DNA of 64,000 nucleotides from Tunturibacter empetritectus. Lineage in GTDB: Bacteria > Acidobacteriota > Terriglobia > Terriglobales > Acidobacteriaceae. The stretch is taken from NCBI RefSeq assembly GCF_040358985.1, contig NZ_CP132932.1:4340001-4404000 (forward strand), given 5' to 3'. Positions 30,731 through 58,498 of this stretch are shown here, piece by piece (positions within the stretch are counted from its first letter, which is position 1; each line of letters begins with the position of its first letter). The notes under the pieces were generated by a model. It made no database searches. It worked only from the letters and a program-made list of their open reading frames with translations, and was not told the DNA's origin. The position numbers were made by a program, and so were the translations under genes.

Positions 30731-32656
30731 TTAGCGGCGTTTCTTGGGAGCAGTCTTCACTGCCTTCTTTGCAGGTTCCTTCTTCGCAGGCGTATGCTTC
30801 ACAGCTGCCTTCTTCGCAGGAGCAGCCTTTGTCGCTACCTTCTTCGCAGGCGCTGCCTTCTTTGCCGGAGCATGCTTCTTCACAGAAGCCTTAGCCGCGG
30901 CCTTCCCCGGGACTTTCTTTGAAACGGTCTTCACCGGAGCCTTCTTCGCCACAGCCTTCACAACTTTCTTAACCGGTGCTTTGCTCGTAGTCTTCATAGG
31001 AGCCTTCTTCGCTGCACCTTTAGCCCCCACACTCTTAGCCGCAACCTTCGCCGGAGCCTTGGCAACTGATTTACCCTTCACCGGAACAGTCGTTTTAGAC
31101 ATAGCAGCAGACTTCTTCGCAGGCTCTTCCGTCTTCCTAGCAACTGTCTTCACTGGCGCAACAACCTTCAATGGCGCAGTAGACTTCACCGGCACAGAAT
31201 TCTTAACCACTCCACCCTTCGCAGGCGCTGGAGCACTCGCCGGAACCACATTCGTCCCCGCCCCCGCGACCGCCTCAGCCTCTCCATTCGTATCCACCAC
31301 AGCAGCCTTCTTGCGGCTCTTTGCTGGCTTCGCATCCTTCTTCGCCACGCGCGGCCTGCGCAGATGTACCGGAGGAGGAGGCGCCGGCGGCGAGTAAGGC
31401 TCAAGATAAGCCTTCATCTCCTCAACCGTCCCTAGCTTGCCATCCATGAGCTCAAAGAAAAGTTTGTCCAGCAGCTCGCCATAGCCAGGCAGATCTGGAA
31501 CGATGCGCATCTCCTGCATCAGCGCATAAGGCAGCTTCTGCTTCGCATGAGCCCACTCGGTAAAGAACCCCTTGAATTTGTTCTGAATTCCAGCGTTCTT
31601 CGACGTGTGCGCCACCCACAGGATCGACTCCGGCTTAGCCGAGTGCAGCAGCTTCCACGCATGCGAAGGCGACGACGCGCCCTTGCCCGAGAACTCCGCC
31701 GCAAACGCCTTCGCCTCGTCCTCCAGCGCCTCGATCTCATGCACGAAGCCCTGCCGCGCAAAGCTCTTCTTCAGCGCCGTTACTTCCTTCGGAGCCATCT
31801 TCGCAGTCAAGTAAGGAAAGTTAGCCGCCGCCGTCTCAGGATAGATTCCCTGAATCTGCAACTGCGACTGCACATCCCTCAGCTTCTCCAGCTCCGTCAC
31901 ATTCGCCTTGGTCGACGACAGCGCCGGGAAAAGATTCTTCATCCACCCCTCGGCCTCCAGCTTGCGCAGCACCCGCAGCGGATCCTCCTCATGGAAGATC
32001 TCCTCGGTCTCATACCCGCGATGAAACTCTCCCATCGCCGAGATGTACCCTTCCTGCTTCCCTGCCTCGTACCGTGTCTGTGTCTTCTCGTCCATCTGCC
32101 AGCTCAGCCTGGCCATCAGCCGCGCCGCCCGAATCATCCTCACTGGATCTTCGATAAACCCATAGTTGCTCACCAGCCGCAGCTCTCGATTCTCAATGTC
32201 CGCCACCCCGTTCAGCGGATCCATCAGCAAGCCATACGAGCCGTCGTTCAGCGACAGCGCCATCGCATTGGCCGTAAAGTCCCGCCGCCGCAGGTCGTCC
32301 AGAATCGTTGCAGCCTTGACCAGCGGCTTACCCGGCTTCGGATAAGTCACCGTCAAAGTGCTGCCAATCTCCATCCTCACACCACCGGGAAACCGCACAA
32401 ACAGCGCCTGTCCGGCTTCGTTCTCACCGGTGATTACGGCATGAGCTTTCTCTAAATCTTTCTTCAGCTTAAGCGCGTTTCCCTGAACCACTACATCCAG
32501 ATCCCGCACCGGCGATCCGCTGGTCATATCTCTTACCGCTCCGCCCACCAGAAACACGGTAAGTCCTTTGGCACGAGCCACTTCGCGTACTGCCAGCAGC
32601 GAGTTACGCTGCGCTTGAGAGAGGCGATTTTCGAGCAGGTAGATGTAGTCGGCCAT
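30731..32656 (-). CDS. cca: CCA tRNA nucleotidyltransferase with a histone H1-like C-terminal tail
   Basis: About 641 residues from ATG 32656 (MADYIYLLEN). Residues 1-415 resemble class II CCA-adding/poly(A) polymerase enzymes: 'VFLVGGAVRDMTSGSPVRDLDVVVQG' in pieces (GGxVRD and the DLD metal pair), 'DLRRRDFTANAMAL', 'ENRELRLV', 'IEDPVRMIRAARLMARL' and 'DPLRVLRKLEAEGW'. The enzyme adds or repairs the tRNA 3' CCA. Residues about 416-641 are a Pro-rich hinge and then a tail of PAKKA/KAPVKK repeats, as in histone H1, making the protein over 200 residues longer than usual. The tail would be disordered and strongly basic, able to bind RNA or DNA. Confidence 0.9.
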   Translation of the reverse strand: MADYIYLLENRLSQAQRNSLLAVREVARAKGLTVFLVGGAVRDMTSGSPVRDLDVVVQGNALKLKKDLEKAHAVITGENEAGQALFVRFPGGVRMEIGSTLTVTYPKPGKPLVKAATILDDLRRRDFTANAMALSLNDGSYGLLMDPLNGVADIENRELRLVSNYGFIEDPVRMIRAARLMARLSWQMDEKTQTRYEAGKQEGYISAMGEFHRGYETEEIFHEEDPLRVLRKLEAEGWMKNLFPALSSTKANVTELEKLRDVQSQLQIQGIYPETAAANFPYLTAKMAPKEVTALKKSFARQGFVHEIEALEDEAKAFAAEFSGKGASSPSHAWKLLHSAKPESILWVAHTSKNAGIQNKFKGFFTEWAHAKQKLPYALMQEMRIVPDLPGYGELLDKLFFELMDGKLGTVEEMKAYLEPYSPPAPPPPVHLRRPRVAKKDAKPAKSRKKAAVVDTNGEAEAVAGAGTNVVPASAPAPAKGGVVKNSVPVKSTAPLKVVAPVKTVARKTEEPAKKSAAMSKTTVPVKGKSVAKAPAKVAAKSVGAKGAAKKAPMKTTSKAPVKKVVKAVAKKAPVKTVSKKVPGKAAAKASVKKHAPAKKAAPAKKVATKAAPAKKAAVKHTPAKKEPAKKAVKTAPKKRR

Positions 32657-32756: not shown

Positions 32757-32871
32757 GATGAGTACAGGTAAACGCAAAAGGCCAATGTAACACAGCATTA
32801 GCGAATTGACTACTCCGGTTGCACCTTTTTCGTTGCTCTAGCCGCTGGTGTGCGACAATCCGCGAGTCCTT

Positions 32872-33411
32872 ATGTCCTCCGCGCACAAGAAGGTCATCGT
32901 CCGCCGCTTCACCGGAGAAACTCTCCCCGGCTACCTGCCACTCGCCGGCTTCACGCGTAACCGCATCGTCGACCTTCTCGACCTCGAGGGCCGTGTCATC
33001 TCACTTGCCATCAATGACATAAAGCACATCTGCTATGTCCGCGACTACAACCTTAATGACGCCGCCAATCCCGAGCGCCTCACCCGCCGCACCTTCCTCG
33101 CCAAGCCACGCACCGAAGGCCTCTGGCTCCGCCTCACCTTCCGCTCCGGCGACCTGCTTGAAGGCCTCGCCCCTATCGATGCGACCCTCGCCGACGACCT
33201 CATCAACGACATCGGCCTCCAGCTCACCCCACCCGACGTCCGCTCCAACACCCAGCGCATCTTCGTCCCGCGCACCTCCATCACCGACCTTCAACTTCTC
33301 GCCGTCATCACCACCCCCTCGCGCCGCAAACCTCTCCCCGCCTCCTCGGTCCCCAGCCTTCAGGAGGACCTCTTCACCAACCTCATTCCACCCAACACCC
33401 GCCCCAACTAA
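32872..33411 (+). CDS. Conserved cytoplasmic protein of unknown function (DUF6982-like)
   Basis: 179 residues from ATG 32872 (MSSAHKKVIVRRF). 'GETLPGYLPLAGFTRNRIVDLLDLEGRVISLAINDIKHICYVRDYN' (read in pieces) and 'GLWLRLTFRSGDLLEGLAPID' suggest a small beta-barrel similar to PilZ-adjacent or Sm-like folds. 'RIFVPRTSITDLQLLAVI' ends the conserved part. The family name is a recollection, not checked. It has no membrane segments. It lies 52 bases upstream of lpxD and may be cotranscribed with it, although lpxD seems to have its own promoter. Confidence 0.7.
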   Translation: MSSAHKKVIVRRFTGETLPGYLPLAGFTRNRIVDLLDLEGRVISLAINDIKHICYVRDYNLNDAANPERLTRRTFLAKPRTEGLWLRLTFRSGDLLEGLAPIDATLADDLINDIGLQLTPPDVRSNTQRIFVPRTSITDLQLLAVITTPSRRKPLPASSVPSLQEDLFTNLIPPNTRPN

Positions 33412-55510: not shown

Positions 55511-58498
55511 ATGAATGACCAGATCACAATTCGCGGCGCCCGCACCCACAATCTCAAGGGCATCGACGTCGACATCCCGCACAACGCCCTCACCGTAGTC
55601 TCCGGCGTCAGCGGCTCCGGCAAATCCTCGCTGGCTTTCGACACCGTCTACGCCGAAGGCCAGCGCCGCTACGTCGAATCGCTCTCCGCCTACGCCCGAC
55701 AGTTCCTCGAGCGCATCGAAAAGCCTGACGTCGACTTCATGGACGGCCTCGCCCCCGCCATCGCCATCAAGCAAAAAAATCAGACCCGCAACCCACGCTC
55801 CACCGTCGCCACTGCAACCGAGATCTACGACTACCTCCGCCTCCTCTACGCCCGCTGCGGCACCGTCACCTGCCTGCACTGCGGCGGAATCGTCAAGCAC
55901 GACACCGTAGACGAGATCATCACCACACTCTTCGCCCTGCCTGAAGGCACACGCACCTACGTCCTTTTTCCCATCCTCCGCGCCGAGCTCAAACTCGAGC
56001 CTATGCAGATCGCGACCGCGGAGCCCGGAGCTGAAGCCCCAACACCAAAGAAGGCCGCCGCAAAGAAATCTTCGAAAGCCGCAAACGCTGCCACCGAGGC
56101 TCTCACCCTCACTGACGCACTCAAAGACCGACTCACTGAACTGCGGCGCCGAGGCTACAATCGCCTCTACCAGTCAGGAAAAATCGTAGAGTTCTCCACT
56201 CCCGAATCCCTCCTCGAACTCGACTTCACCCAGCCCATCTTCGCCCTCATCGACCGCCTCGCCATCAGCCCCGAGAGCCGCGCCAGAGTTGTCGATGCCA
56301 TCGAGACCGGCTACCGCGAATCCGGCGAAGTACAGTTTCACACCGTTTCGCGCGAAGAGAACGAGGCCGCAACGAAGTTGCGTTTCTCCGCAGCCTTCGA
56401 GTGCACCACCTGCCACCGCGCCTATCGCGAACCCGAACCGCGCCTCTTCTCCTTCAATAATCCCTACGGCGCGTGCCCCCGCTGCCAGGGCTTCGGCAAC
56501 ACCATCGACTTCGATCCAAATCTGATCATCCCCGACAAGTCGAAGACCCTCGACGAAGGCGCCATCGCCCCCTGGACCACCACCAAGTACCGCCCGCACC
56601 ACGGCGAGATGAAGCGCGCCGCCAAAGCCGCCGGCATCCCCACCGACGTCCCCTGGTACGATCTCACTCCCGCCCAACAAGCCTTCATCGAAGATGGCAA
56701 CACCACCTTCCCCGGCATCCGCGGTTTCTTCGCCGCGCTCGAACGCAAAAAATACAAGCTCCACGTCCGCGTCTTCCTCTCGAAGTACCGCGGCTACGCC
56801 CTCTGCCCCGACTGTCGAGGCCAACGCCTCCGCGCCGAAGCCCGCGCCGTCCTTATCAACAACCAAAATATCTGCGAGACCTCCGCCCTGACCATCACAG
56901 GCGCCCAGGAGTTCTTCGATAATTTGCAACTTACACCGGCACAATTAGAAGTAGCCGGAAAGATCCTCGAAGAGGTCCGCCAGCGCGTTCACTTCCTCCA
57001 TCAGGTGGGTCTCGACTACCTCACCCTCGATCGCCTCAGCTCCACCCTCTCCGGCGGTGAAGCCCAGCGCATTCAACTCGCAACCTCACTAGGCTCGCGC
57101 TTAGTCGGCGCCCTCTATGTCCTCGACGAGCCCAGCATCGGCCTCCACACCCGAGACACCGCCAAGCTTATCAGCATCATGAAAGACCTCCGCGACCTCG
57201 GTAACACCATCCTCGTCGTCGAGCATGACCCCGACGTCATCCGCGCCGCCGACCACCTCCTCGACCTCGGTCCCGGAGCCGGCGAGCTAGGCGGTCATCT
57301 CCTCGCCGAAGGTACAGTCGGCGAGGTCACGGCCAACCCCAACTCCATTACCGGGAAATACCTCTCCGGCCGCGCCACCATCCCCATCCCAAAGCACCGC
57401 CGCGAGCCCGGCCGCGAGCACCTCAAGCTCACCGGAGCACGCATCCACAACCTCCGTGGGGTCGACATCGACATCCCCCTCGGCCTGCTCTGCTGCGTCA
57501 CCGGCGTCAGCGGCTCCGGAAAATCCACCATCGTCCACCAGGTCCTCTATCGTGCCCTTATGCAGTCGCTCGGCCAGACCGAAGGCGCAGATCCAGCACA
57601 CCTCTATCGCGAGCTCTCCGGCACCCAGCACCTCAACGATGTCATCCTCGTTGACCAGTCGCCAATCGGCCGTACTCCGCGATCCAATCCAGTTACCTAT
57701 ATCAAAGCCTTCGACGATATCCGCGCCCTCTTCGCCGCCCAACCGGACGCCAAGCGCAAAGGCTTCGGACCCGGCCACTTTTCCTTTAATGTCCCCGGCG
57801 GGCGCTGCGACGTCTGCGAAGGCGACGGCACCGTCACTGTCGAGATGCAGTTCCTCGCCGACATCGAGCTCCCCTGCGAAGAGTGCAACGGAACACGTTA
57901 CAAATCCAGTATCCTCGACATCCGCTACAAGGGCAAGAACATCCACGACGTTCTCAATATGACCGTCAAGGAAGCTCTCGTCTACTTCGCAGGCCACCCC
58001 AAGATCGTCGACAAGCTCTACGTCCTCGACGAGGTCGGCCTCGGCTACGTCCGTCTCGGCCAATCCGCCACCACGCTCTCCGGCGGCGAAGCCCAGCGTG
58101 TCAAACTCGCCTCCCACCTCGCCACCGCTCGCTCCATCACCAACCGCAGCGCCAACGACACAGCCGCCAAGGTCCGCAGCCGCACCCTCTACATCCTCGA
58201 CGAGCCCACTACTGGCCTCCACTTCGACGACGTCGCCAAGCTCCTCGCAGCTTTCCGCAAGCTCATCGAAGGCGGCGGCTCCCTCCTCGTCATCGAGCAC
58301 AATCTCGACGTCATCAAATCCGCCGACTGGGTCATCGACATGGGCCCCGAGGGCGGCAGCGGCGGCGGCCAGATCGTAGCCACCGGCACACCCGAAGAGA
58401 TCGCCGTCAACCCCGCATCCCACACCGGCCATTGGCTGGCCCCCGTCCTCAACCTAGCCACCCCGAAGGCCGAACCAGAACTCCAGGTCACCGCATGA
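55511..58498 (+). CDS. uvrA: UvrABC excinuclease subunit A, with Lys/Ala-rich insert
   Basis: 995 residues with two ABC modules. Walker A sites: '[14 protein letters not shown]' (about 31-44) and '[13 protein letters not shown]'. Signature motifs '[19 protein letters not shown]' and '[15 protein letters not shown]' and two Walker B sites follow. Zinc fingers have '[18 protein letters not shown]...CPRCQGFG' and '[32 protein letters not shown]' (in pieces); the first region also has 'CLHCGG'. UvrA finds DNA damage and loads UvrB. A Lys/Ala-rich insert (about residues 172-198, '[16 protein letters not shown]') sits in the UvrB-binding region and is unusual. The last residues '[10 protein letters not shown]' are duplicated 480 bases downstream. 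Confidence 0.97.
58465..58494 (+). repeat. Direct repeat, left copy (uvrA 3' end)
   Basis: GAAGGCCGAACCAGAACT plus CCAGGTCACCGC, encoding the C-terminal [10 protein letters not shown] of UvrA. A near copy lies at 58979-59005. The two flank the ASCH gene. Confidence 0.7.

Follow-up and report, generated by a model that had tools for sequence, protein, structure and literature searches.

Where a bacterium has two class II nucleotidyltransferases, they are usually interpreted as a CC/A or CCA/poly(A) pair. Within this class, the CCA-adding enzyme of Thermotoga maritima (TmCCA) has Asp55, Asp57 and Asp99 as its catalytic carboxylates (PMC3925840), and the deletion of a flexible loop is the hallmark of bacterial CC-adding enzymes (PMC7014341). 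Polycationic tails have been described in another setting. AlgP and PhaF carry KPAA tails that reportedly bind DNA or are required to position granules (PMC9239181). Low-complexity regions rich in lysine show enrichment among DNA-binding proteins and are able to bind RNA (PMC6821194), and polycations of the AKP type are established binders of nucleic acids (PMC9239181, PMC6821194). Here, we describe a protein of Tunturibacter empetritectus that carries both elements. The fold and the tail type are each known already. The literature searched yielded no acidobacterial enzyme with a tail of this kind, though this does not prove that none exists, and we likewise found there neither this combination of tail and fold, nor class-wide conservation beside a standard CCA enzyme, nor repeated catalytic loss.

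The gene lies in a stretch of 64,000 nucleotides (contig NZ_CP132932.1, positions 4,340,001 to 4,404,000), which we call the window and to which positions below refer. Its ORF (32656..30731, minus strand) runs from an ATG at 32656 to a stop codon at 30733-30731 and encodes 641 amino acids in one uninterrupted frame. In a scan of named genomes, the protein was 98% identical to its counterpart in Edaphobacter lichenicola M8UP22.

The nucleotidyltransferase core

Residues 1-418 (31403..32656, minus strand) form a nucleotidyltransferase core with head, neck and body but without an HD domain. The PolyA_pol head domain PF01743 matches residues 34-160 with 70.1 bits (cut-off 23, E 2.9e-19), and the core is neutral in charge, with 54 K/R versus 55 D/E. 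Among proteins of solved structure, the T. maritima CCA-adding enzyme and the A. aeolicus A-adding enzyme are the closest in sequence (nearest structures 3h38/5hc9 and 4wby/1vfg). An AlphaFold model of residues 1-440 (mean pLDDT 93.7) displays the head-neck-body fold, and its top fold matches are all class II enzymes, with E down to 6e-20. The same two proteins head this list, with TM-scores of only about 0.42-0.53, low values that we attribute, on the model, to different domain angles.

The catalytic residues known from relatives are in place. The DxD motif, D52-x-D54 (32495..32503, minus strand), and the third carboxylate, E96 (32369..32371, minus strand), align with D55, D57 and D99 of TmCCA, and E96 aligns with Glu74 of the A. 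aeolicus enzyme. Motif inspection places D126 in the sequence RRDFT (32279..32281, minus strand). Residues 169-173, EDPVR (motif D; 32138..32152, minus strand), correspond to EDxxR, the predicted amino-acid template as defined in PMC7014341. All of these residues are intact, and sequence and fold together place the protein among the class II RNA nucleotidyltransferases, with predicted catalytic activity.

Which member of the class is it? Curated NCBIfam cut-offs are not reached: 85.8 bits against 451 for the CCA equivalog NF008137, 81 against 290 for NF009814, and 65.4 against 305.65 for the poly(A) polymerase model pcnB. These misses rule out a standard CCA or PcnB annotation. The 880-residue A-adding equivalog is likewise missed (120 bits against 1440), with a match confined to the C-terminal half of the model. 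The loop deletion of CC-adding enzymes was not seen; the flexible loop is present and can be aligned with those of TmCCA and the A. aeolicus A-adding enzyme.

A second nucleotidyltransferase in the genome

Exactly two PF01743 proteins are found in this genome, as in most relatives. The other (L041, around G000:C1:2611798-2612319) possesses an HD domain, has no tail, and is closest to the CCA-adding enzymes of Bacillus stearothermophilus and Planococcus. Its DxD and RRD motifs are intact at all 30 loci inspected, of which sister family f2 contributes 11 and f3 one. A CC-adding role for this paralogue, as partner of the tailed protein, is ruled out: its loop can be aligned, its motifs are complete, and in f2 the tailed protein could hardly supply the A since its catalytic residues are missing. 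From its sequence, we infer that the HD enzyme can perform CCA repair.

Does the genome require CCA addition at all? CCA directly follows each of the 48 tRNA genes detected, and is encoded in 29 of 30 tRNA genes tested in one f2 genome. Because the tRNA genes encode CCA, de novo synthesis should not be needed in the window genome. By sequence comparison, the tailed protein is a second, accessory nucleotidyltransferase and not the housekeeping CCA enzyme, the Thermotoga/Aquifex type being the closest. The preliminary description had named it a CCA-adding enzyme. Its nucleotidyltransferase core is borne out by the domain match, the class II fold and the catalytic motifs; the label needs revision in view of the separate intact HD-domain enzyme of CCA type, the CCA-encoding tRNA genes and the orthologues that have lost catalytic residues.

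Active-site decay in relatives

On a tree of 58 sequences, D52, D54 or D126 changed in at least five events. In family f2, all 12 proteins have the first Asp replaced, the third carboxylate changed from E to R, and RRD changed to RRG, yet their cores evolve under purifying selection (dN/dS 0.08-0.24). The orthology of the f2 proteins is backed by common gene neighbors: a small conserved protein, lpxD, a Xer-type recombinase and dnaE. Families f7, f8, f15 and part of f6 likewise have another residue in place of the third carboxylate, most often Ser. Asp-to-Glu substitution need not abolish activity. Within the window's own family, 62 of 69 distinct proteins retain all four residues, i.e., the triad and the Asp of RRD.

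Around the tailed gene in relatives (L274-L285), we noted lpxD, the small conserved gene, a Xer-type recombinase, a MurJ-like gene, dnaE and accA, names that were assigned by eye. The small conserved gene is present in the window as well, at 32848-33411.

The histone H1-like tail

The last 223 residues (419-641) include 52 K, 52 A, 31 V and 28 P, with 59 K/R versus 8 D/E, and constitute a long polycationic C-terminus of the H1-like or KPAA type. Three segments can be distinguished, all encoded on the minus strand. A conserved hinge, EPYSPPAPPPPVHLRRPRVAKKDAKPAKSRKKAA (residues 419-452, 31301..31402), consists of a poly-Pro spacer and a basic box. It is followed by a variable linker (residues 453-500, 31157..31300), which is strongly acidic in some relatives, and by about 140 residues of KKAPVK/PAKKA-like repeats (the AKP tail, residues 501-641, 30734..31156). 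In the DNA of the tail, two rows of tandem repeats have periods of 30 and 15. The preliminary description, which spoke of a tail of about 225 residues with a Pro-rich hinge and H1-like PAKKA/KAPVKK repeats, was accurate on these points.

How well is the tail conserved? In a first survey, 24 of 24 same-genus relatives carried it, and an orthologue was found in 144 genomes of a 150-genome family sample. Both the Pro-rich hinge and the tail are present in the fetched family members whose ORF is uncut by a contig end. The hinge is near-invariant within the genus, while in other genera of the family it is represented by a Pro-rich stretch and a basic box. Family members mostly retain the positive charge of the tail; several members of the class (in f6, f8, f14 and f3) have almost no tail. 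The linker and the AKP repeats differ among relatives by indels, and repeat number varies. The comparison of homologs and of repeat number proposed with the preliminary description thus found both a shared tail, extending to other genera, and a variable length.

We calculated dN/dS against nine relatives where this was possible; the nearest relative has almost no core changes and yields no useful core value. Values were 0.05-0.11 for the core, 0.06-0.12 for the hinge region, 0.33-1.0 for the linker and 0.14-0.42 for the repeats. By these values, constraint on the hinge equals that on the enzyme core, and selection also acts on the repeats at the protein level, apparently to keep their composition. 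The tail is not a product of chance: all 24 same-genus relatives carry it, at dN/dS well below 1, and the pattern of substitution indicates that it is translated and under selection. A frameshift or an untranslated tail is ruled out by dN/dS and conservation, which agrees with the earlier opinion that the tail is no frameshift artefact. The argument then offered from codon use, that tail codons end in C or G like those of the rest of the gene, stands in part. Lys codons prefer AAG as in the core, but GC at third positions is lower in the tail (0.58) than in the core (0.73), with Ala and Val shifted towards GCT and GTT.

AT-hook-like KRGRKPK motifs were observed in the tails of several same-family orthologues (L088, L119, L122). 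The window protein contains none.

AKP tails on other proteins

A protein search with the tail as query recovered only the gene itself; the list of tailed proteins is thus incomplete, and the census rests on DNA patterns only. Two degenerate DNA patterns gave 12 and 28 matches in the genome, versus 2 and 5 for reversed control patterns. Tails or segments of AKP type were detected in these scans on uL22, an S30AE/HPF-like protein, a receiver-domain response regulator, a DUF6496 protein, a 298-residue acidic-plus-AKP protein, and phasin-like, ATP-grasp-like and plasmid ParB-like proteins, the last three named by eye. That the tail is unique to the window gene is ruled out by these similar tails on several other proteins of the genome. 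The AKP tail is a habit of the lineage, and its carriers include RNA and ribosome proteins, though not only those. Two of the clearly AKP-tailed proteins are ribosomal or ribosome-associated: uL22 (G000:C1:3001335, L134) and the S30AE/HPF-like protein (3137392, L135).

Two other carriers deserve description. The 298-residue ORF (G000:C1:2211300-2211680; L127, L130) has a strongly acidic N-terminal part, a long AKP part and a weak HC2 match (E 0.0015), and is possibly a stand-alone H1-like protein. In the response regulator (G000:C1:1576054-1576212, L174), the receiver domain is directly followed by an H1-like tail with an HC2 match of E 5e-8, and no output domain was found. In the window itself, a short peptide segment of a UvrA-like ORF was singled out at 56048-56068.

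Possible roles of the tailed enzyme

Why keep a second nucleotidyltransferase, and why give it such a tail? We favor, at a probability of about 0.5, an accessory class II RNA nucleotidyltransferase of the Thermotoga/Aquifex (CCA- or A-adding) type whose polycationic tail holds the enzyme on RNA. The tail would be disordered, serve as a polycation without sequence preference and increase the enzyme's local affinity for RNA, the target being tRNA or another structured RNA, possibly on or near ribosomes. The folded core would provide acceptor/elbow specificity and add or repair a 3'-terminal A or CCA, with the rigid poly-Pro spacer holding the tail away from the active site. As CCA synthesis and basic repair should not depend on this protein, some relatives could have given up catalysis and still kept the binding of RNA through core and tail. 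Conservation of the tail in the genus and in other genera, hinge dN/dS equal to that of the core, and the ribosomal AKP-tailed proteins are consistent with an RNA tether. Against it, DNA is the described ligand of the KPAA tails of AlgP and PhaF, and AKP tails on the response regulator, phasin-like and plasmid ParB-like proteins mean that the tail is not specific to RNA proteins. Several relatives have lost catalytic residues, so that activity of the window protein itself is a prediction.

Those losses bring up a tentative alternative, on the unlikely side in our estimate: a mainly non-catalytic scaffold, a pseudoenzyme or nearly so, in which the core would hold tRNA-like RNA, the tail would condense or chaperone RNA, and nucleotide addition would be vestigial. 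The repeated changes at D52, D54 or D126, the constrained cores of f2 with their replaced catalytic positions, the Ser substitutions of f7, f8, f15 and part of f6, and the CCA encoded by all tRNA genes here and by 29 of 30 in one f2 genome fit such a scaffold, but the full triad and RRD Asp in most distinct family proteins argue for retained catalysis in this lineage. Alternatively, the tail might anchor the protein on the nucleoid (or on polyphosphate), a role that has been suggested for the KPAA tails of PhaF and AlgP. Tail composition resembles that of these proteins, with their links to DNA binding and granule positioning (PMC9239181), several same-family tails bear the AT-hook-like motif, and dnaE and xer are gene neighbors in relatives. 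Gene neighborhood is weak evidence, however, the window protein lacks the motif, and the enzyme class acts on RNA; we think such a tether improbable. Of the two targets suggested in the preliminary description, RNA or the nucleoid, we favor RNA. Least function would be assigned to the tail if it were a low-complexity extension tolerated in a lineage prone to AKP tails, as the same kind of tail on several unrelated proteins, its fast change in length and the almost tail-less members of f6, f8, f14 and f3 could suggest. The low dN/dS of repeats and hinge and the positive charge kept by most family members make this very unlikely.

The significance of the protein lies in a second enzyme conserved class-wide despite CCA-encoding tRNA genes, in its H1-like tail, and in repeated active-site decay under continued selection. 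Judged from these sequences, binding of RNA (or DNA) may be no less important to the protein's role than catalysis. It offers a clean test case for roles of a tRNA nucleotidyltransferase beyond catalysis and for the role of H1-like tails on bacterial RNA enzymes. A bolder proposal, which we hold as doubtful, is that a second tRNA nucleotidyltransferase, class-wide in Acidobacteriota, has turned, several times independently, into a non-catalytic RNA-binding protein with the H1-like tail as its working part. If true, a bacterial RNA (or nucleoid-RNA) organizer would have been built from a tRNA-repair enzyme.

Comparison with known systems

The T. maritima CCA-adding enzyme (3h37/3h38/5hc9) is the best match by sequence and fold and shares the class II head-neck-body fold and the DxD, RRD and EDxxR-like motifs, but its solved chain has no H1-like tail. 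The T. maritima protein adds the full CCA; the window genome, by contrast, holds a second nucleotidyltransferase and tRNA genes that encode CCA. The A. aeolicus A-adding enzyme (1vfg/4wby) belongs to the same subgroup, with Glu as third carboxylate and the same TYPxPG loop. It works with a CC-adding partner, while the partner in the window genome resembles a full CCA type and possesses the loop; the H1-like tail again sets the window protein apart.

The tail is similar in composition to chlamydial histone-like HC2 (PF07382) and to eukaryotic H1 tails, but the window protein does not match the Pfam HC2 model even at E 1. Closer in kind are Pseudomonas AlgP and PhaF, whose disordered K/A/P repeat tails of about 150 residues have been likened to the histone H1 C-terminal domain (PMC9239181). 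There, the tail is carried by non-enzymatic proteins of polyP or PHA granules and its repeat unit is KPAA, in contrast to AKKAPVK/PAKKA on the nucleotidyltransferase described here.
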